From contig CM038921.1 of NCBI GenBank assembly GCA_021904315.1, positions 14,662,146 to 14,726,145 of the forward strand: a DNA stretch of 64,000 nt. The letters run 5' to 3'. The stretch's first letter is position 1, and the number at the start of each line of letters is the position of its first letter. Below the pieces are notes generated by a model. That model was not told where the DNA came from. It saw only the letters and a program-made list of their open reading frames with translations, and did no database searches. Origin of the DNA: Sphagnum magellanicum. Its lineage: Eukaryota > Streptophyta > Sphagnopsida > Sphagnales > Sphagnaceae. Positions 26,578 to 57,235 of this stretch are shown here, in pieces. A program made the translations under genes and the position numbers.

Positions 26578-27902
26578 CTACTTATTCCACCAAAGAGTCA
26601 CATCCTTGCGTCGATGAATTTTCTTCTGCAACTGAAGCAACCCATAGAGAAGAGCTTCAGCTGTTGGAGGGCAACCAGGGACATAGATGTCAACAGGCAC
26701 AATGCGATCACAACCCCGAACAACTGAATATGAGTAATGGTAGTAGCCTCCTCCATTAGCACAGCTCCCCATTGATACTACCCACCGTGGCTCCGGCATC
26801 TGGTCATAAACTCTGGGGAAAATTGTCTCCAAAACCACAATTCAGATCATGAGAGATGCATCATCACTGACAGGTCAAATGCAGACAAAGGTTATGCTTA
26901 CAGCAATCTAGAAAATAAACCAAGTCATAAATCCAGCACATGTTTTAACAGAAGAAACCCTAACCACAACATTACACATGAGAAACACCTTCTTGCAAAC
27001 ACTTCCTTTCATGTAATTCTGAGAAACTAGGGTAGGCAAGGAATCATCAATCCAAGGATGCAATGCAAGGTGATTGGAAAACTGCAACTCAAACTGAGAG
27101 AGATTGTACATTTCTTAGACACATATACAATAATTTTTTATGTATGAAAACCAGAACAGAAACCAGCACGTTTTTTGAACAAGAACCCTAAAAAATACAA
27201 TCAGAAGAAGCCCTAACCACAAAAGAACCCTAAAAGATACAAACAGAAGAAGCCCTAACAACAAAAGAACCCTAAAAGATACAAACAGAAGAAACCCTAA
27301 TCACAAAAGAACCCTAAAAAATACAACCCGAAGAAACCCTAATCACCAAAAGAACCCTAAAAAATACAAACATCGCCCAGGAAAAATGCACGCAATCTCT
27401 CTGCTTCGTACATTCTGTGAACTTCAAAACGAGGGCAAACAGGAGACAATGCAAAAAAGAGATCGAAAGAGTTTCGGCCGGGGGGGGGGGAGGGTCGGTG
27501 TTGTTAAAAAGCTTCAGTGACATACTTGCGCAACGCGGGGGCCATCTTATTGGTAAGAGTTCCGGCGACGATCATGCAGTCAGATTGTCTGGGACTCGGC
27601 CTAAAAATGATACCAAACCTATCCAGATCGTAACGAGCCGCCCCGGTGTGCATCATCTCCACAGCACAGCAAGCCAAACCAAAGGTCATAGGCCATATGG
27701 AACCGGTACGCGCCCAGTTCATCAACGCATCCACCTTGGAGAGCACGTACTCCGCCCCTGGTCCACTACTGGAACCCCCTCGACTGGAGCTCGCCGTTGG
27801 CTCCAGCGTTGCCAAAGCTGGCACCGTGCTATGCAACAACCTGGTTGTCCATACCCTTGCCGCCGCCGCTGCCGCCGCCCTGGGCAGCAGCGACATGGCC
27901 AT
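26578..27902 (-). CDS. NDUFS7: NADH dehydrogenase [ubiquinone] iron-sulfur protein 7, mitochondrial (complex I PSST/20-kDa subunit)
   Basis: Two coding exons: 27902-27526 and 26812-26578. They join in phase 2 across a GTATGT...CCCCAG intron (27525-26813) and give 203 residues, near the usual plant size of about 218. This subunit of the complex I peripheral arm carries cluster N2, the last iron-sulfur centre before ubiquinone. The cluster cysteines are visible: the CC pair in [10 protein letters not shown], one in GSCANGG and one in [10 protein letters not shown]. The junction restores [13 protein letters not shown], and the protein ends in WWNK as in flowering plants. The N-terminus is Ala/Arg/Ser-rich ([13 protein letters not shown]), as expected of a mitochondrial transit peptide. 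I start at the Met at 27902 because the sequence from there fits a transit peptide. The frame stays open up to 28064, and a second Met lies two codons downstream at 27896. Confidence 0.97.
27181..27371. repeat. 42-bp minisatellite with teloboxes inside the NDUFS7 intron
   Basis: Copies begin with AAGAACCCTAAAA at 27181, 27223, 27265, 27307 and 27350, so the period is 42 bp (43 in the last). Each unit carries two ACCCTAA or GCCCTAA cores, which are telobox-like on this strand and TTAGGGT on the gene's sense strand. The rest of the 713-bp intron (26813-27180 and 27372-27525) holds nothing else notable except a run of 10 G near 27481-27490. Teloboxes near the starts of plant genes for translation and respiration are known regulatory motifs; a role here is inference. 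Confidence 0.9.
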
Positions 27903-29799
27903 CGCCGATCGCCTCTTGTCGTCCCGTGCTCGAATCTCGTCAAATGTCGCGCGCGTTGAGTGCGAGAGGACAGAGATGGGTGCCGCAGCGCACAGGATTC
28001 TCAAATAGTTACTTACTAGTAAGGCGGTTATGGGGCTATTTGGTAATGAATTTTTTTTTACCATTAAATAATAAATTGTCCTTTAAAAATCACTGAAAAT
28101 ATTAAATCGCTGAAAAAGATGCTTGTCAGTGGCACTTCCACAATTAGTAAGGTACCAATTTATTTATTTATAATTAAAAATTTGATGAGCTTGTTTTTTT
28201 TTTCTTTTTTAAAAAAAATTCACATTTCTTTTCTTTTACTAAAAATTTCTTTTAACAGGCCCCATATTCTTAAATTACCTTAAAAACATCAATACAAAAC
28301 AACATATCTTTACAAAATGAAATTTTAATTGTTATATAATTACTGAATTTCATTAAAATTTTGAAAATTCAAATTTATCATGACACAAAAACAATCTTTG
28401 AAAATGCTGAAAAAATCAACACCAAATGTTGAAAATTACAATCGAAATCATTCAAAATGTTGAAACTATGAAGACCATTGACTTTCAAATGTCACAAATA
28501 ATGTAAGAATTATGTCTCAAACTACAAAGAGTAAAAGTTCAATGCTCAAATTTTTAAACTTATCAAATATCCAAACTATGAAAGCTTATCAAATCAACCA
28601 AAATGTGGTGTCAAAATTCATCTCAAAATTATTAAAAATCTCAAAGTACCAAAGAACTTGAAGCTCAATGCTCAAATTATGAAGCCATCCTACCAGTGTG
28701 ATAGATCAAATCTAAAATCAAAAGCATATTATGTTGGCATTGAAGAAGAAAAAGAATTGCAACACAAATGTTAGCAATTTGAAATCAAGTTGTGTCAAGG
28801 TAATGCGTTATTTAATCATGTTGTTAATTATGATCGGAAAATTTTGAAGCTTGCTAAAACATGACTAAATGTGGTATTAACACTAACCACTCCCTATGGA
28901 GATCAGCCAAAAATTGTATCCAATTGTTCTTTGTGTTTAAAAAACTAGATTTCAAAACTCATTCCAAAACCCATCCTTAACATAAACAACAATTTTTTCT
29001 GGTTTAGGCACATGCACAACACATTTATCTTAAGAAGAATTATTGTAGCACTAAAGTTTAAAATAGGAATAACTTGTTCAAAAGTTGGAACATTATCAAG
29101 AATAGGAAAATTAGCAACTACATCACCTTGTCCACAATCATGATCACAAACTTAACATCTCATGACTTAGTAACAAAAATTGTGCAAAATTTGTACATTT
29201 CACACATTAATATCGTGCATTGAAAACACATTTGACATGTGGATTTATAAGAAAATACAAAATTTGTGTGACATTTGTTCATTCATAGATTTGTATTTCA
29301 TCAATCAACACATTTATCTATTTGTCAAATGTGTTTTCAATGCATGATATTCGTGTGTAAAATGTACAAACCTATGAATAAATGAACTTCACACAATTTT
29401 CATTATTAATTTGTCACATGTTTAATTTGTGAGTTTGATCGTACAAAACACAAAAATCACCAAAAAAAAACAAATTCAAGAAAAACACAAAATTAAAAAC
29501 AACAAATTGCTCCCCCAAAAAAAATAAAATTACATTTTTAATACAAGTTTTTATCCTCACTGAATGACTTGTGATAATGAAACAAATAACCATCTATAAA
29601 TTTGCCACTAACGATGTGTTGCAAAACCTTATCTTGCAATTTTTAAAAATTTTGGTTGTACTAATAAAACAATAAAAACTAATTAGTACCATGCAAATAA
29701 AAAATTGAAAAAATCAACAACACAAAACTTTAAAATTGTAACAAAATGGAAACTTGCAATTGAAGACTTCCTAGATGAAAAATATTTGAAACAATTAGA
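27903..29799. other. NDUFS7 upstream region, then AT-rich intergenic DNA
   Basis: About 100 bp upstream of the NDUFS7 start remain GC-rich and probably belong to the leader. I see no convincing TATA box or site II element. From about 28060 on the DNA is AT-rich. Near 29200-29400 two related phrases around TTTGACATGTGG and GTGTTTTCAATGCATGATA lie in opposite orientation, a loose inverted repeat of unknown origin. Confidence 0.4.
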
Positions 29800-31407: not shown

Positions 31408-33775
31408 TGTAAAGCACCAAAGTCAATAAAAAGATAAGAATGTAAATCAATAGACTAGTTAATTACAACCAAACTTGACAATCCCAAAATAAAATTGATG
31501 GAAGTTTCAATAAAAAGATTTAAAATATCATTGAAACAATATTTCTTCAAAGTAGGCTTATCAATGAATGACATTGTTACAAAAACACAAAAAGCGACAC
31601 AAAAAAATGAATATAAATCTATAGACAAAACTCCAATCGACGAGAACTTGAAAGTAAAAAGAATATGGATAAGAATATTTACAAGCCAATTGAACCAATG
31701 TTGGTGCAAAATAAACACATATTTTTTTCTAAATGTTACACAAATAAGTACAAATGCAAAATTGTTAAAAAAGAAACAACGATGTATCCATAACATCTTG
31801 TTACAAGACAATGAATAAAATCAACAAGAAATAACAAAAGGGAAGAGAAAGAGAAGATGTTGCAAGTAATGTTGTTATAACCAAACAAATTCTTGCAAAT
31901 CAATGAAGGTGGGAGAAAGATGCAAATTGATGATGAAAGGAAATCAACTTCTCAATTTTCAATGTTGCTTGAAAAAAAAAATAGCAAAAAATCTTGCAAA
32001 TTGCAAGGACGAAGAAAAAAAAAACATCAATTCTAACATACAAAGCACAAGATGAAAAAAACATTGTTCCAACAAAGATTAGATGAAGCATATAAGATGA
32101 AGAAAATATTATCCTATGAAAAAATTGTTCCAACAAACATGGCTAGCACATGGGTTCCATTTTTTTTGGCAAAATGAAAATAATGAAAATAATGATATTT
32201 TTTCACATTCCCTTTTATTGAAAAATAATTTCCAATTTTTTTTTAAAAAATTGAAATACTTTTGCCAAATTTGAACTTTGATTCTAATTTGGTAACATTT
32301 TATTAATTGGTTTAAAAACTATTTAGATATGTTCTAAAAATGTATTATCATTTAATGCTATTTTTTTCTTGGGATGTTAGCCAATGATGCAACATCATAG
32401 AATTGGAAAAAATATGGTTGGTTGTTTGAATTGTTTTTCTTAGTTATAGTGAATGAAATAATTGTTAAATGTGTAATAAGGTTTGGTAGGTTTGTGAGAA
32501 TTTTAGAGAATCAATGGAAATGTTAGAAAGGGACCATTTATTTCAATGTTTAGTAGAATAAGGTTGTGCATAGGCTTAAAATTTTAAGGCCAATGGGATT
32601 ATTGGATTTGGAGGTTTAAATTATTTTTCTTAATTATTCAGAGGGAACTAATAATCAATGTGTAATAACTATTTAGAATATCTAGCACATTATTTGTGCA
32701 CTTTGTTTTTTTCCTTCTAAGGATTATAACTACTACCTAGTATCGCATGTGGCATGGAGAACTTATTGTTTAGTTACAAAATATACACATTTTAAAACTG
32801 TGAAACAAGGTCAAATTAATAATTGAATTGTGTCCTACAACCTACATGCATTTTGGAGGAATCAAATATGGAAAAAAAGTTATTATAAATACAAAAGTGA
32901 GGGGAATTTGGCTTGTTGAATTTGATTGAATTTGTTAGTGACAAAGTTATCTTTTATTGTGTGAAAACACAATTTTCCTAAAGGCTTGATTTTGTTATTT
33001 TTCTTGAGTTTATAATGATAAATAATATTCAAATTTTAATAACTCCCCCACTATAGGTCTAAAAATGACCAATTCGTTTTGATGGACCCATTACATATGG
33101 AGGGCCTTCCAAGTGTGCCAAGATTACACTTAAAATTTCCCTAAAAAATAAAGCTTTGATTTTCAATAAAATTTTATAAATGAAAATGCTCAAAACTTGA
33201 TAATGCTTGTGTTGAAAGTCGAAAGGTTTAAATATTGGAAAAGTCACCTTGTGTAGCACTATTCATTGAAGGGTTTCCAATAGTTCCAAAAACAAGCCAT
33301 TGTAGGTGGAGAGATTGCAATGTGACAAAACAAGCAAACCAAACAAGTAGCTAATGATGTAATGTCTCTACCCTAGCATGCACGAATGTTATTGTCATTG
33401 TCAAGTTAGACAAGGTATATAGTATATAGCCATGTTGGGTGCTTATTAAAATTTATTACATATATCAATTGGTTATCAACCTTTGTATATAACCACTTAC
33501 TGAATGGGGATGAAAATTTCAAATAACAACTTTCTATAACTTTTAGTTTTTTGATGAAAACTAATGGTTTTTTGAGGTTTTGAAACTTGGAGTAAATGGT
33601 TTTTTGATACCAATTTGTTGTCAAAAAATTGAAAGCAACAATTTTTTAATTTAAAAATTATTGAAGAATTGGAACTAATGGTTACTCAAAAAACCAAAAT
33701 AACCACCAAACACTTAGATTTTTAACATCTCACCACTATTTGGTTTTGTCATTGTTGTTGATGACTTTTGGAGGA
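31408..33775. other. AT-rich intergenic stretch
   Basis: No gene is supported. ORFs of 107-118 codons on opposite strands at 31455-31818 mirror each other and lack motifs. The first few hundred bases may be intronic sequence of the recombinase relic. Confidence 0.4.
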
Positions 33776-35694
33776 CTAGTTTTTTTTACTTATGTGATTA
33801 TTGTGGGACATTATTTGGGAGTTTTTATGCAAAATATATTGGTTTATGGTTGGTCCAATAATATAATAAGCTTTGACAACTCTTGACATACATCGTCGAA
33901 TGGGGGCTTTTGTTGACACAAGATCAATATGAGAGTGATAAATTGTTGTGATTTCTTTTTCCCAAAGTTCCATTGAGTAATAGTCCAAATAAGTTTGAAG
34001 TTCGTTTGGTTGTGTTGAATTTTGATCAAACATATCAATATTGAAATCACCAATTATTACTATTGGACAAGAAGTTGGCACTACATCCAAGAATTTTTGA
34101 AGGTGAACCAAGAACATTGAAAAGTTTAATGTTAAATATTTGTATATTGCTATTACATGAATGGTTTTTCTTGTATTTACATTGATTGTTGCTATAAACA
34201 TTCAATTCCCAAAGATGTGAATGTCTCATGTGATGATAACGTGGTGAAATTGTCATATATAATCATTGTACCATTTCATTCATTCACACTTATTGTTGAA
34301 AGAGTTGTATTAATGTCAAAGATGTAATATTTGAGATGTATTTGCATTGAAATGTGTTTCAATGAAACATAATATATGAGATGGTTTGAGATTGTAATCC
34401 AAAAGAATATCATCTATGTGTAAAGGTAAATCACTTAGTATTGAGATAATGAATAAATACATGTAAGTTGCAAAATGTATGTCATTCGGGGACGAATACA
34501 TCCCAACATGTGGTTGTTTATAAACAATGCATTTATGTGGTAACGCTTGGATCAATTTGAGAAAAATCATATATAAAAGTTGAAAAAGATAAAGATTTTT
34601 TTTGTTCTTAACAAGAAAATACTTATATGTCAACCCATGTTTATACACACTAGTAGGGTTGAAAGCCAAATAATCAAGTGTTAATCCTTGTGTTTGATGT
34701 ATAGTGTGTGCTACAACCAATTGAATTGAAATTGTGTTTTTGTTATAATATGGGGAAGAAATTAACCAATTTGGATATGTTTTGATATGGATTATATTAG
34801 TGTCCATGTAGGATGTCTTTCAATTTCGTACAAGTGTGCATTCTTTGTTCTTGTGAACTAATCACATTTAGGATTTAAAAACGAAATCCATATGATTTTT
34901 TGTGAATTAAGTAATTTAGTTGAACCTTGGAATATTCCATTTGCACAGTTTACTATACCATCATGTGTTGCATAATTACAAGCACAAAGTTCAACCAACA
35001 TGGTAATCTTTACCTACAATTCTAATTGCAAGTTAGTTGTGAAATTTGTATCATTTTGCAATTGAAATGATTGAGGACATGTATCATGATGTTTTTCTTG
35101 TGCACACAATATGTAAACATCGCCATCAATTTGGAATAAAATTGATTCATCATGTTTTAACCTTGCTTCATTTGTATAAAATAAATATGGGAATTATGAA
35201 TCATTGGTGTTGTACAAATTTTTTGATTATTTATGGTACCTACATCAATTTGTGACTAGGTAGTAGTTTGAAAGTGATTTAAGATATTAATGAATAGTTT
35301 ATCACTTGTTTCAATTCAATACACTTGAGATTTTCCAATCAAAAGATTTTAGCTAAACTATCAATGTTATTTGTATTACTTTTGAAAATTCATACATCAC
35401 AAATTGGTTGAACTTGATAAAAATTGCTAATGATAACGACATCAATATTTCCAAAGAATGTTATGTGAATGCGTTTAATTTATCTTAATTGAAGGTCAAC
35501 AAATTTCAATATTTTTTCCTTATTAATGAAATTTCATTTAACACTATCAATTGTAATTGGTCATATTTTTTAACGAAATTATCTAATCATTTTGAACTCA
35601 AGGATGGTAAATTTTTACAATTAAAAGGTATAAAAAGTCTTGAATGAATTGTGACTCCATCAATATGAAATGTTTTTTTTTCTAGTGTATGCAA

Positions 35695-36393
35695 GGGTGA
35701 ATGCACTTTAAGGTGACATAAAGTGGCACATGTGGTGTCCATAGTTTTTTAATGTGAATATTTGATGTTTTGGGAATGCAAATTAATTTGAAAGTACGAG
35801 GCAAGAAGAATATTTAAACCCTAAACTTACAAGTTTTCAAATTATGACGCATACCGCAATTTGATCAATTAAAGGAAAAGTTAGAAGCAAAAACATGGGT
35901 TTTAAAAAAAAACATTAATTGGCAGATGTTATGTTGGGTAATAATGTCACTTTTTACAAGACAACATTTATTAATTTTTCCATTTTAATAAATTATGGAC
36001 TTTAAATTATTGGTCATCTCACATCATCCTAATAAATTAAAATATTAAATTTGATTGGAAACCCTTATTTTAACATTACAATAGCTTCACAATCATATTA
36101 GGAATAAAAATTCAATAATTAAAACAAGTTTACTATGTAATAAAAGTCCATAAAACTTTTTATGGACTATGACAAAAATCTTACATCACTTGAAAAGTCC
36201 ACCTTGTAATGAAATGATGGCATTTTATGTTCAATTTTCTTAATTTGATTTTTTTAATGTTATAGTTTAATTAAATGAGTCATTTAAAAAATTCAATTAA
36301 ACTTCAACACATATTATACCAAACTTAAAGGTACCCAATAAAAATTGCCCTTGTAACACCAAAAAATGGAATGTCTAATGTGCAACTGCCCAC
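35695..36393. mobile_element. Short TIR element inserted in the Helentron helicase
   Basis: About 700 bp of non-coding AT-rich DNA separates two adjoining parts of the Pif1 frame: NPSKK (above 36395) and the AYT...FHIDG text (below 35694). The left end GGGTGAATGCAC, followed by GGTGAC and AAGTGGCACAT, closely resembles the inverted right end of the 15588-16373 element. The right end read in reverse is GTGGGCAGTTGCAC and is more diverged. Flanking triplets are CAA and CAT, so the target duplication is imperfect. The PIF/Harbinger-like class is inferred from the family. Confidence 0.6.
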
Positions 36394-37010
36394 CATGAAA
36401 AAAAAATTTCTTGGAAGGATTTGATTGAAGGTGTCTATTGTAAAAATGTAATAAACTTTGAATTACAAACATTAATGTGAATTTTTTACATGTATCAACA
36501 CCTCTAGTAATGAACAAATGTATCGGTTCATTTAAATTTTATTTTTTCCCATACACGACATCATCAAATATAAAATATTGTTCATTATTCACTTTTGGAA
36601 ATAACAAGTAAAACTCTTTGTAGGCATAATTTAATTATTTGCGTCAATATTACTTGAGTCATGAATAGTGGAATCACCTACGTGTGGCTTAATAACATAC
36701 TCACTATTAATATTACATGGTTCCACTCCTGTACAACCAATAACAATTTGTGGTGGAGATCCAATGTTTACATTACAAAATTTATCCATCCATATGTTTG
36801 TGTTATTTCTTGTTGTTAATTCAAAGGCTTGTGATTTTATGTGCATTGTTATTTATAAAAATATATTTTATTTTTTTCACTAAATTGATTTGTGTTTGAT
36901 GCATATTATATGTTTTATGCCATATGGAATAATTTTGTTTAAGGTTATTTTCATTATAACAAAATGGAACAAAAAATAATGATTGTTCCTTATAGTAGTT
37001 TTTTGGGTCA

Positions 37011-39249
37011 CACTAGAAGAAATTTGAAAATGAACAATTGAATTTGTGATTCATTTATAGTTGTAATGGACACATGTGATTAAAAATAACGTAGTTGTTT
37101 TGGACAAGTGCCATAAAATAGTTAGTCACAAAAGACATGATATAGCCATGAAGTTGAAAGTGTAGTTGTAAACCTTATGATTAGACCCAAATTTCTCATC
37201 TATTGCCATAGATGATCCTTAGTATGACGTGGAACCCCAATTTGCGACTATATTTGTGATTACATTTGGAATAATTGCATGCTACCAAATGTGCCATTGA
37301 TGGGTGGTTAGGATTTAACCATGTGGTAATTTAAAAAATTAATGGCCATAAAACATGTGATAATTTTCCATTTGTTCAAAAAAGATATATTATAATTATA
37401 GTAATTAATCATAATCTATCCTAAGCTAAACTATAATAGGCAACCTATTCTAAGCTAGGCTAGGGTAGAATAGTTTAACTAACATAGGCTAAGTAGGTGG
37501 GTAAAATCCTATTTATTTTGTTGGGGACAAGCCTTTTGATTGGTTCATCCCAAATGGCATATGCACTATGTTTATAGTGCATACCATGAATCTAGTCCAT
37601 TCCTTCACCTACTTATATACTTTACAAGTTGAGACAATTCTAATGAAAGGGAAACACTACAACACTACAACACTATCACATCCTTTGTCCCATACAAAAA
37701 CATTATCAATATCCACACAATAAAATACCTACAATTTAACTTAACTATTTACTACCTACTACTTATTACTACCTATCCTACTTATCATATACTACCTAGG
37801 CTATTTATTTATTATCTACTACCTAGCCTACCAAATAAATTAATATCCTAACCTACATTTAATAAACTAATTGTTTAACATAGCTAATTAATTAATCAAT
37901 TAATACAAAAACACTATGACATATCTACAAAATAAAATACCTTTTGGTTAACATATAACCTACCTACATATGACCTACTAGTAGCTATCCTACTTATTTC
38001 ATACTACCTATGTTACATACCTACTCTCTATTACCTAACCTACCTAATAAATTATCTACCTAACCTACATTTAATAAATAAATCGTTTAACATAGTTAAT
38101 TAATTAATTAATTGATACAAAAACATTATGACAATTATTCACAAAATAAAATACCTTTTACTTAGCTTACCTACCTACTTATTGCCTACTAGTGCTTATC
38201 CTATTTATTACATACCTACTATCTACTACCTAGCCTACCTAATAAATTAATTTTTTAACATAACTAGTTATTTTATCAATTAATACGAAAACATTATAAC
38301 ATATCCACCAAATAAAATACCTCTTGCTTAGCTTACCTACCTACCTACTACCTGCTAATACTTATCCTACTTATTACATACTACCCAACCTAACTAATTA
38401 ATTGATTAAGTACCTAACCTAATTAATTAATTAATATGAAAACATGATCATATATTCACACAATAAACTAATAAACCTACCTACTACTTATCCTACTTAC
38501 TATCCACTACCTAGTTTACTAATTAATTAATGACCTAGCCTACCAATTACCTACCTAATTTACCTAGTTTAATTAGGTCTAACCTTCATAACCTAACCTA
38601 TTAGCTACACTTAATGAATTAGCCTACTATTAGCTATAGATAACTTAGGCCAATTAATTAAGTATGCAAGCTAGGCTAGGCTACCAATGTACATAAGCAC
38701 AATTACTTTAGTGTAACCTATTAAACTTAGTTAGCTTACTTTACCAACTAGGTTATAATAGCCTTTTCTAGCAAACTATTAGTTATTATATATTATATCA
38801 TGGAAGAGCCATGGATAATTGCAAAGAAGACCCATGGATGGGTAAATTGAAGGAATAATAATCTAATTGAAATAACAAAGTTTGCCATATGTGGTTTATG
38901 TTTCTTTATTCATATGGTAGAATAAATTATTATAGTTGAAAAACCTTTCATTTGTAGTTGCAACAATAACTTCCTTATCATCCATCAATGAATGTAATCA
39001 AAATTGGATGACATTGTTCACTTTTCATCTACATTTTCAATGAAAATCATATTAGTTGTAAGTTGTAGTCGCATCTACAACCAAAATTTGGTTCAACCTT
39101 TCTTGTAGTTGCATATGCAACTACAACAAGTTGCAACTACATGGACACTTAAGACTAACACACTATTAGTTGTAAAATCAATTGGTTTGGACATTAGTCG
39201 CATAATAGTCGCAAAAAAAAGGGTAGAATGGACAACATTTCTTCTAGTG
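37011..39249. mobile_element. Complete non-autonomous CACTA (En/Spm) element, TSD TCA
   Basis: Both ends read CACTAGAAGAAAT (13 of 13 identical when inverted). TCA flanks both sides at 37008-37010 and 39250-39252. Subterminal regions carry many TAGTTGTA, TAGTTGCA and TAGTCGCA motifs in both orientations, as expected of CACTA transposase-binding repeats. The 2,239-bp interior has no transposase and is largely a tandem array. The insertion lies inside the Helentron frame: minus-strand codons ending ...GAGCATTGTGA continue after the element as TGACCCAAAA, sharing the duplicated triplet. It must therefore be younger than the Helentron. Confidence 0.93.
37693..38560. repeat. Tandem array of 150-212 bp units inside the CACTA element
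   Basis: A phrase like TACAAAAACATTATGACATA followed by AAATAAAATACCTTTTG recurs at 37693, 37904, 38116, 38284 and 38435 (spacings 211, 212, 168, 151). Between these anchors the DNA is dominated by CTAC/CCTA tetramers and TTAATTAA. The shortening spacing suggests unequal exchange or internal deletion. Confidence 0.85.
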
Positions 39250-39800
39250 TCACAATGCTCATTGTAATGAACATAATGTAATATATGTTTTTTTTTGTTT
39301 TTTTTGTATCATCCATTGTGTCACAATTTACAACAAATTCAATTAGAGAAATGTTAAACAAAAAGTTATTCCTTTTGACATATTTATCAATGGTGGAAAG
39401 GCACATAATATTCGTAGAATCCAAAGGAAGTGTTTTCAACAATTTTACATTTTTCAATACAAATGCACGTTCTTGCCATGGGGATGTATTAATGAATTTG
39501 AGTATTCTAAATGCATGTTATAATGGAATAGACAACACTATATATATGTAACTAGTTGTGCTGACATTTGTTAAACATTAAAAAATACATTTCCCATCCT
39601 TTGAATACGAATATGTGTTTTTTTTTTTTCATTACTATTGACAATTATGACTTTTAGTTCTTTTGTAAGCATGTTATCTATTTTTGTTAGATAAGATGTG
39701 CAATAATTAGTTGCAGCATAAGGGTCAAGTATGAATTGCATATTTGTATTTGCTTGCCAAAGATTCCTAACATTAATCCCAAATTGAACTTTTGAACTTT

Positions 39801-41746
39801 TTATATTTCATTAAAAAAATCAACTTTTATTATTATTTATTGGAATTAATAAAACTGAAAATTAAACTAAATTGGTAAGCATGAGGGTAAAAAAGGGAGG
39901 TGCATAGGAGAGAAAAAAAGAGTTGGGTCTAAAGAATGAAGGAATGATATCTTGAATAGTCCCTTTGATTGTGACCTTGTGAATTCCCCCATGTTACTCC
40001 CCTTTGTCTAGGCTATTTGAAGGTGCAATAATTCATGGCATTGTTGTTATAAAATTTCAAACATTGTTGTGAGCTCCAACAATAACCTATTTAAAATAAA
40101 CTTCTTACTCCTTATTCCTTAATTTCTTGTTGTTTTGCACTCATTTTTCTTGTAATAAATTTGCAACCCCTTTCATTGTGGCCTTGCATATAAAGTTTAG
40201 GGTTTAGGGTAGTTCCTCTTTGTTTATCGTTTTCGTAATAGAGTTTAGGGTTTAAGGTAGTTCCCTTTTGTTTATCATTTTCATAATAGAGTTTAGGGTT
40301 TAGGGTAGTTCCCTTTTGTTTATCCTTTTCATACTAGAGTTTAGGGTTAGTTCCCATTTGTTTATAAATTACTTTACAACAATGGATGTGAAAAAATAAA
40401 TTCATGATCCATATTTTGGTTTTATGAATAAACTACATGTTAAATAGGCAAGGGTATTTGGACTTGGAGGCTTTAGGCCTATTGCCAAACAAAGAAGACA
40501 TGTGTGTATGTATGTAATGAGGCATTGGAGTTTCTTTAGATGATGTCTATGCAAGGGCATGCACTTTTTTCTTCATTTATTTGTTGACTTTCTAATTTTT
40601 ATATACAACATTTTTTTACTCAAATACACTTACACACAAAATAAATATATATTTGAAATACATTTACACTTACCCAACTAATATTTCAAGATCCATATAT
40701 AAATAATGATGGTGATTACGTTTTATTGGGACAACAAATATTCATATGATTTCTTACAACTTTCAATTTCTTCTACTATATATATATATATAAAATTCAG
40801 TACGGCATAATACATCTAACATCAAGTCCTTTGACTAGTATTTAGTCGATCATATTGTTGCATTTTATTTTTTTAATCTATTAAACATTTGAACCAAGTT
40901 CATGGCTAACATAGCCACTCAGTGATATTTTTTCAATTTTCTGATTTTGTGTTATTTTGCTAGCAACCCAAGAAACATTTAGCATTAAAATGGAGATAGG
41001 TTTTTAGAACCTATCTAAATAAATTTTTTTAAAGATTAAAAATTAACTAAAATCAGAGTCCAAATGTGGCAAAAAATTTTAACAGAATATTCCCTTTAAA
41101 ATTTAATTTAAAAAAAAAATTGGTGAAATTTTTTTGCACACAAAGAAAACATTGCAATAAGAAGCAGTTATAACTTATAATTGGGTTATAATCATTAGGG
41201 AGTTCAAACAGATTACACATGGAGGAATTGTCTTAAAGAGCCCCCCTATTAGGTTTAAATAGGCAATGGTGCAACCCAAATTCCAATACTTAGGGCTTAT
41301 TATTATACTAACAATAATGTTTCCTTTTAAAAAAAAAGGGGCAGCAATTTATTTTTATTTCAAATTTGTGATATATCTGAAGTAGATAAGATCATCACCC
41401 ATGAGGCAATTTAGCCAAATATGGCAATATAAGAGAGTAGAAAGTTTTTTTAAAAATGATATAAACTTCCTTCTATATATTTTTTGGCTACCTATTGGAA
41501 CTTAATATAGAAACTCTCAATTTAAACAACAACATTTAGATTTAATTTGTTAGGGGAGAATTGACAATTTCATTAATGCAACTCTGGAAAACAATCAAGG
41601 CACTATTGATCTGAGTTCAATCTCATTGGACATATTTATTATTATTATTATTATTAATTTGGAACAAATAGGAATACCCATTTTTGTGTGTGCATTTTGT
41701 GTTATTCCCTCATATGCTTCTTGTGTCATGCATGAATAACATGTTT
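39801..41746. other. Intergenic DNA beyond the Helentron
   Basis: Helitron-like text stops near 39800, and I see no further coding. A telomere-motif minisatellite is listed separately. At 41366-41435 lies a copy of the dispersed TTTGTGAT...TTTAGCCAAAT family, and at about 41637-41655 an ATT run. Confidence 0.45.
40194..40367 (+). repeat. 48-bp minisatellite containing TTTAGGG
   Basis: Units start AGTTTAGGG at 40194, 40242, 40290 and 40338, an exact 48-bp period with the last copy partial. Each unit holds one or two telomere-type heptamers followed by GGTAGTTCCCTTTTGTTTAT with small changes. Confidence 0.9.
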
Positions 41747-54894: not shown

Positions 54895-57235
54895 ATGAAG
54901 GAAAGAAAGAAAAATTATATTTGTACTAGTACTTACAACAACTGACATAACCATGGTGTGACCCGGTGGAATGGGCTTCAAATTGTGTAGTCTAAATTTT
55001 GGAGATTTCCAACTACAGTTGCTTCCTTGCCAGCTTCAGAAAGAATTTACTGAGTAGAAGAAGATGTGCAACTAAGTATTGGGTGGGTTGTAAAATTGAG
55101 AAACTTGTGCATTTGGGATGCACACAGTATAATATCCCATCATCACCTAATTTTTTAGTTGCCAGTTCAGTGTTTTATAGAGATTTCTTCACCATAGCTG
55201 CTCCTCATTTCTCATTGCACATACATTGTTTTATATCTGGAAGCTGCTGTACTTGGATCTTCCTTCCTTCACAAGTCTAGAGATGTCATTCTCTACAAAT
55301 TACAACAGTTGTGTGATCAAAACCCACAGTAGCAACAGCAGCAGCAGCAGCAGCAGCTTTGAATGTAAAGAGATCTGCAGGCACACTGTGAAATTGCAGA
55401 TGATCCATGTACATGTCACAGACCCATGTGAAAAAAAATGCCACCATAGCTTCTTTTCCCTTGCATTGCTGCTACTGAGCTTGTCAACAAGGAGTTTTTG
55501 GGAAGGATTTAAGGGGAAGTTCAGAAATTTCGGGTCCAGTGAAAAATCAAACTTAGCTTGAGAATTTCTCTCATCAATCCTACTAAGCCTAGGGAATTTC
55601 TTGCCACGATCATCAGATCCAGAAATTTGGATGAAGCTACATGCTCTCAGATGGGTTCTTTTGTAGAGAAAAACTTGCTGAAGCTCTCTCTGTATAAGCA
55701 ATGCTGTAGCCATAGCCAGGAGAATTCAAGGAGATCATTGAACTTTGTGCTCTCTTTGCCATTATAGCTGCAAGTACATAACCAACACTCAACCTCTTTC
55801 TCTGTCCAAAAATGTATCAAAACACAAGCAAGGAGATTGCAAATTGTGAAATTTGTTGTTGTAAAGTCATGGTGTTAAAATTAAGACTTTGAGCAAGATT
55901 CACCATATTCCTCCCTCCCCTCACCGCTCGAGTGTTTTGTTTGTCATTCATTCATTCATTCATTCATTCATTCTACTTCTTCATTACCAGTGGGTAGCAA
56001 AGAGCAAACATGTGTAGCACCAAATCCTTCTTCACACACTTAGAAGCAATTTAGATGGTCAAGAATTTGATTTTCATGGTGACTTGGGAATCCATCACAC
56101 CCACCTCATCATCATCATCTACTCCCAATTCCTTCCTTCATAGCTAATAATAATGCATCTCCCAACTCATGCCTGAGCACACATTCTGAAGAGTAATCTA
56201 TCTATGAAGGAAGGTAGTTTGATTTCTTTTGTTTTGTTTTGTAGTTATGAGATCCACCAAACCAGGATGCTTCAGATCATGTTCTTGGTGTCGTTGGAAA
56301 GCTCTTGACGAGGAGTGGTGCATGGGCTTAGTCCCATGACATTTGGACTTGCGGTGCAAAAGTTCTTGAATCTTGAATGATTTCTTCACTGAAAATTAAA
56401 TTAAATTAAATCATAGCTGAAAATTTGATGGAATACTTGGGAATACATCATTTGTTGAAATGGCAATCCTCAAAGTTAATCAACAAACATGTGTTGAAGT
56501 GGCCAATGCACACTACCCTAGTGTTTTACCACATTCAACATAGAGTGTTAGTTATTCCCCATCCCTACCCATAAACATGGAGAATAACATGGTGTAAAGT
56601 GAGAGACTATTTAAATGCCAACAACTAAGCCAATCATTATGGTTGGTCAATCAAACGCGGTCAGCCTTTCTACTAACCCTTTAGGAATTCATTGTAAAAC
56701 TTGTGTATATTTATAGGTACAAACTCAATTTCATGTTATTGAAAGAATTTCAATGCCCCTCTCGCCCCCACCCCACCTAGGCCAATTGATATGGTAGACC
56801 AATCAAAAATAGTCATCTTTTTTGCACTAACCCTTTGGGAGATTGTAAAATATCTTGTGCGCATTTACCATTTCAAACTCATTTTCATGCTATTGAAAGG
56901 TTATATACTTCAATTCAAAATACTATGTACATGCCATTTTGCTGATGGTGCTGAAGATGTGCTGATGAAGGTTGGCTAGAATGACATTACTCACTAATAC
57001 CCAACCATCAACATTGCTGGAAAAAGTCACAAAACCTCTCTCCCACTTTGAAAAACTAACACATGGTGCGAATGGTTGTTGTTTAAGTAGTAGTTGATTG
57101 CACAAAGAAACGGTTAAGTATAAGTTAATGTGATAGTTGATATATAAGATGGACAAGCCCATAGTTTGTAATTAAAGCAACAGTGGTGTCTGTCTGTCTG
57201 TCCGGGTAGTGCTTGGAAAATTCTTCTAATCATAA
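54895..57235. other. 3' region of the coiled-coil gene and following intergenic DNA
   Basis: Up to about 55770 the sequence keeps gene-like composition and is probably 3' UTR or adjacent transcribed DNA. It holds a CAG run at 55328-55358. Beyond it lie an (ATTC)6 run near 55948-55972 and a patch at 56270-56345 with GTTGGAAAGC-type phrases seen in LTR-like sequence. No second ORF is convincing. Confidence 0.4.

Follow-up and report, generated by a model that had tools for sequence, protein, structure and literature searches.

The stretch examined here, referred to as the window, comprises 64,000 nucleotides of the Sphagnum magellanicum genome (contig C15, 14662146-14726145, in an assembly of 438,994,042 bases and 31 contigs). 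Its minus strand carries at 33342..39794 the remnant of a transposon that lacks its 5' part, keeps its 3' terminus and is split by two insertions. The element is very probably a dead Helentron copy, whose protein once combined three parts: an HUH Rep nuclease, a helicase of Pif1 type and, at the C-terminus, an endonuclease. An earlier sequence-only reading had placed such an element at 33776..39800; that interval holds the remnant, but the element continues to a 3' end at 33342.

Organization of the window copy

Three-frame translation of the interval's minus strand showed frameshifts and stops, so the pieces were tested individually against relatives and not as a single gene. Read from 39794 to 33765, the copy begins with a post-HUH region and continues with a Pif1-type helicase; an exonuclease-endonuclease-phosphatase (EEP) domain comes last. 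The frameshifted region between the Rep HUH site and the helicase (QFILDPYAATNYCTSYLTK ... FINTSPWQERAFVLK; 39250..39794, minus strand) is 71% identical over 82 residues to a fragment of one relative, L040 (E=3e-36). The helicase follows on the same strand as an N-terminal part (36387..37010) with a decayed Walker A motif (GVDTCKKFT), a middle part (34820..35685) with FHIDGVTIHS, LIVLNEISLI, FYQ and MLVELCACNYATHDGIVN, and a C-terminal open reading frame (ORF; AHTIHQTQGLTLD) which at 34316..34819 continues into the beginning of the endonuclease (ILCFIETHF), as judged from the translation and the relatives. The joint between helicase and endonuclease is frameshifted in this copy, and the endonuclease itself, a member of the EEP superfamily according to Pfam and the relatives, occupies a minus-strand ORF of 141 amino acids (aa) at 33776..34201 that includes IIGDFN. 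VVAHTIHQTQGLTLD lies near 34700 and FYQ (ISNFYQVQP) near 35420, both on the minus strand.

Translated fragments of the relatives align in collinear order to three minus-strand segments of the window (39794-39215, 37009-36359 and 35685-33765). The first of these segments extends 35 bases into an insertion and the second some 27 bases; the insertion edges were fixed separately. The region yields 238 translated matches at E<=1e-4, compared with none in 100 dinucleotide shuffles. An additional match at 56207-56332 derives from sequence upstream of the L039 copy and lies outside the element.

On the 5' side, homology stops between about 39794 (protein) and 39855 (DNA), varying with the relative compared. 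None of the Rep pieces finds a match across the whole window at E<=1e-4, and between 39795 and 50000 only two hits pass E<=0.1 (E=0.008 and E=0.032), neither derived from the Rep site. The element's 5' portion with the HUH site is absent at this high-coordinate edge, through truncation or possibly a third insertion. Immediately upstream, at 40190-40348, there are 3.3 copies of a 48-bp tandem unit with TTTAGGG heptamers.

The three motifs cited in the sequence-only reading (TIHQTQGLTL, FYQ and IIGDFN) were all recovered in the minus-strand translation. Its order, from the end of Rep through a Pif1 helicase to an endonuclease, agrees with the collinear matches, except that the supposed end of Rep is the conserved post-HUH region. 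The HUH part is missing as it had stated, and right-edge truncation, the cause it proposed, is one of the two possibilities just named.

A dispersed family with a common 3' end

The genome was searched with the window endonuclease (124 aa; the best 150 of 422 candidates were scored) and with the Rep fragment of the L041 copy (the best 150 of 354); all counts of endonuclease and Rep loci below refer to these scored matches. After joining same-strand matches less than 1.5 kb apart, 143 endonuclease loci were obtained on 18 contigs and 145 Rep loci on 19. Within a pairing limit of 10 kb, a same-strand endonuclease lies downstream of 52 of the 145 Rep loci, at a median distance of 3.25 kb; an endonuclease upstream on the same strand occurs at none of the 145, and on the opposite strand at two.

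The 14 best other endonuclease loci were excised for comparison, and four copies (L039-L042) were extended upstream. The end of the helicase adjoins the endonuclease in the same order in 14 of 14, and the preceding helicase part is also found in 13, the exception being L027. Upstream, L040, L041 and L042 show the inter-domain region and a Rep site that reads GSQHDHGLLW or differs from it by one letter; L039 covers the helicase side only. A fusion of the endonuclease to the helicase C-terminus is observed directly in L043, where a single frame of 309 aa runs from the last helicase motif (SQGLSLDELAF) to the end of the endonuclease and is 32% identical to L029. The nearest other endonuclease copies are about 63% identical to the window query and remoter ones 30-45%; across endonuclease and Rep matches, identity to the query is about 60-85% in some and 30-45% in others, and these two bands point to more than one old subfamily. 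Remoter members among the 143 loci could be other EEP genes; the only two that were read, L043 and L044, are both of Helentron type.

In Pfam, the window endonuclease ORF has a match to Exo_endo_phos_2 (E=3.3e-5; 24.2 bits, under the cut-off of 27.4), and the endonucleases of L036 and L044 exceed that cut-off (30.2 bits). The window helicase pieces by themselves match no Pfam family and reach a PDB PIF1 structure at E=0.22 only; they were recognized through the relatives, among which Pfam PIF1 is found in L044 at 5.8e-5 (23.2 bits, cut-off 25.9) and in L042 at 0.025. The Rep fragment of L042 matches Helitron_like_N at 7e-5, under the cut-off, and that of L041 at 0.077. A Pfam scan of the inter-domain region gave nothing credible, and viral contigs scanned with the helicase ORF gave five pattern matches, none of which was confirmed. 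PDB searches with the window endonuclease and with an endonuclease profile returned 4yde (E 0.013) and 7mq8 (E 0.43), both taken as chance.

Farther upstream, L042 contains at about 2300-2600 (element orientation) an OTU-like stretch made of four tandem repeats; Pfam OTU matches it at 1.3e-5, a score inflated by the four repeated units. Two adjacent L042 stretches may be OTU as well, judging by their motifs, and Pfam matched neither. Two upstream frames of L042 were scanned for RPA with no Pfam match (the remaining upstream frames were not scanned).

The family has a defined 3' end. When the 3' sides of 14 copies were aligned, 12 shared a common end next to nine unrelated flanks, and L037 and L038 did not fit. 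One flank is common to three copies on C16 and another to L034 and L035. Several endonuclease copies lie at 15.98-16.22 Mb of C16, and the three with the common flank (L026, L028 and L033) look like a local duplication. The end lies about 130 bp beyond the endonuclease stop in L029. Ten of the 12 copies close with TT (the end being set by eye on the alignment), and the ends are mostly CTTGTT. In the window, 33342..33394 (minus strand, ending CTTGTT) aligns with the L036 terminus at a local score of 51, compared with a maximum of 28 over 1000 shuffles; an initial apparent 3' truncation at 33708 was superseded by this terminus, and parts of the intervening stretch recur next to an endonuclease copy on C12. 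A hairpin of 11 pairs is predicted 27-56 bases from the 3' end in nine copies, among which no pair has changed on both sides.

Nested insertions and surrounding sequence

Both insertions announced in the sequence-only reading were confirmed. The first, at 37011..39249 (breakpoints CACTAGAAGAAAT...ATTTCTTCTAGTG, placed by alignment to uninterrupted relatives), has 13-bp terminal inverted repeats, a TCA target duplication (one TCA on either side) and internal 212-bp tandem repeats. A genome search gave 85 matches from the best 40 scored of 724 candidates, self included, and many of them start at its first base or finish at its last. The CACTA superfamily (EnSpm) is defined by CACTA ends and a 3-bp duplication, and the insertion resembles these transposons in its CACTA-starting ends and its 3-bp target duplication. 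It differs from them in that no frame of at least 80 aa lies wholly within it, so that no CACTA transposase was recognized and it is placed as a non-autonomous member only. The second insertion, a dispersed repeat of about 0.69 kb with approximate edges (35695..36386), was found at 39 other places among the best 40 scored of 186 candidates. With termini that show just a loose inversion and with no clear target duplication, it is not assigned to a class. The nesting gives a relative order in which the Helentron came earliest, followed by the small repeat and the CACTA element in either order.

Elsewhere in the window, a minus-strand frame at 27504-28082 resembles, by its motifs, the nuclear NADH dehydrogenase subunit NDUFS7. 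A scan of the window for tRNA genes found none.

Origin of the family and its relation to known elements

The arrangement could be thought to arise from a fragment of a cellular Pif1 gene adjoining an unrelated endonuclease of a long interspersed nuclear element (LINE), an explanation to which the weak scores of the window pieces by themselves lend some colour and which is nevertheless scarcely credible. It would have to account for the constant order of helicase end and endonuclease at all 14 of the other loci compared, for the single frame of L043, for the pairing of Rep with endonuclease at 52 of 145 Rep loci and for a common 3' end about 130 bp past the endonuclease in L029. A LINE retrotransposon as such was rejected, since 12 of the 14 aligned copies end soon after the endonuclease and therefore leave no room for a reverse transcriptase (no direct search for one was made). 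The sequence-only reading had named two outcomes that would speak against it, the lack of collinear Rep-helicase matches or a Pif1 gene beside a LINE endonuclease; what was found instead is a collinear Rep-helicase-endonuclease family throughout the genome, with 52 same-strand pairs and none on the wrong side, and its proposal that a plant carries a rolling-circle element with an endonuclease is upheld.

Contaminant animal, fungal or oomycete DNA in the assembly has just as negligible a probability. LEAFY SAM domains, which are not known outside land plants and related algae, have 12 matches above cut-off in this genome and none in 14 control genomes (those named being bacteria); the genome is therefore that of a plant. 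Eight of the contigs with endonuclease loci (18) or Rep loci (19) also hold such above-cut-off domains, and the window copy is interrupted by repeats dispersed through the same genome. A few plant Helentron matches had been found earlier, and contamination was suspected and could not be excluded for them (PMC4067079); for the present genome that doubt is removed. The pairing of Rep with endonuclease and the single frame of L043 thus argue for a Helentron-type family, and neither for contamination nor for Pif1 beside a LINE.

A Helitron2-type element, composed of Rep and helicase, might instead have acquired the endonuclease within the plant lineage, independently of animal Helentrons. This is improbable, although the Pfam family that the endonuclease matches takes its name from endonuclease-reverse transcriptase proteins, and although 93 of the 145 Rep loci have no scored endonuclease, as expected if endonuclease-free relatives exist. 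These 93 may lack the endonuclease, or it may fall outside the 150 scored. Against an independent gain stand the position and same-strand order of the endonuclease, which are those of Helentrons (PMC4067079), and, more tentatively, the OTU-like stretch upstream in a relative, a feature described for Helentrons too. Somewhat less improbable, yet still doubtful, is a bryophyte lineage of endonuclease-bearing rolling-circle transposons standing apart from animal Helentrons, alongside relatives that never had the endonuclease; such a lineage would have been retained from early streptophytes or would have captured its endonuclease independently.

Several observations weigh against assignment to the Helentrons. 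The placement follows from domain order and not from phylogeny. The window domains fall under the curated Pfam cut-offs, the L029 endonuclease reaches just E=0.011 in Pfam, the 309-aa frame of L043, recognized through alignment, has no Pfam match at E<=0.1, and the endonuclease profile finds nothing in the PDB once the chance matches are set aside. The longest open frames among the scored matches are 309 aa (endonuclease) and 368 aa (Rep), and the 93 unpaired Rep loci count here as well. A 5' terminus was searched for and not found, and when the upstream parts of three copies were examined for exact 10-mer inverses of four 3' ends, as subterminal inverted repeats would give, none occurred. The termini agree with those of Helentrons only in part.

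If the family moved in the manner of known Helitrons, Rep would nick one strand, the helicase would peel off a single strand, and a circle or strand intermediate would arise; joined ends in a Helitron2-type element of Fusarium support the circular step in that relative (PMC5148889). The endonuclease, described in Helentrons as nearest to the endonucleases of CR1 retrotransposons (PMC4067079), may assist cutting of a T-rich target. The window copy would have lost, or never copied, its own 5' part; the two insertions came later.

The mechanism is an ordinary one, and the value of the family lies in the plant record: a chromosome-scale plant genome with 143 scored endonuclease loci and 52 Rep-endonuclease pairs, from which vertical descent and transfer of plant Helentrons can now be tested directly by a tree. 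No report of a land-plant Helentron was found among the titles and abstract openings surveyed in the open-licence literature; because only that literature was surveyed, no claim to a first report is made.

Canonical Helitrons are present in the same genome. A search for the PIF1 family (the best 150 of 699 candidates were scored) found abundant matches on C1-C19 and C25, and eight translated loci (L001-L008) are canonical Helitrons, in which an HUH Rep is likewise joined to a Pif1 helicase. Some matches of the search lie in frames of more than 1000 aa (one, at L014, of 1508 aa), unlike the decayed Helentrons, and are therefore possibly recent. The endonuclease has no match at E<=1 in the 23 PIF1-family loci that were retrieved, the eight canonical Helitrons among them; none of the 150 scored matches has an endonuclease match within 10 kb, and the Rep of the canonical Helitron L001 resembles that of L041 at E=0.018 and 24% identity only. 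Canonical Helitrons end in CTRR; the present family does not, its ends being mostly CTTGTT, and it carries an endonuclease, on both of which grounds that assignment was rejected. Helitron2 elements of Chlamydomonas and Fusarium are described as the branch with which Helentron proteins cluster, and as having no endonuclease (PMC5148889), unlike the family reported here; an endonuclease-free Helitron2 was accordingly set aside.

Among the systems compared, Helentrons (PMC4067079) come closest. Two of their features, a subterminal inverted repeat and RPA, were not found in the copies examined (for RPA, the two L042 frames scanned), and the Sphagnum family differs in its land-plant host and its decayed copies. 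It is alike in the HUH Rep, the Pif1-type helicase and the C-terminal endonuclease set in a single direction, and possibly also in the OTU-like stretch upstream in a relative and in the 3' TT of most aligned copies.

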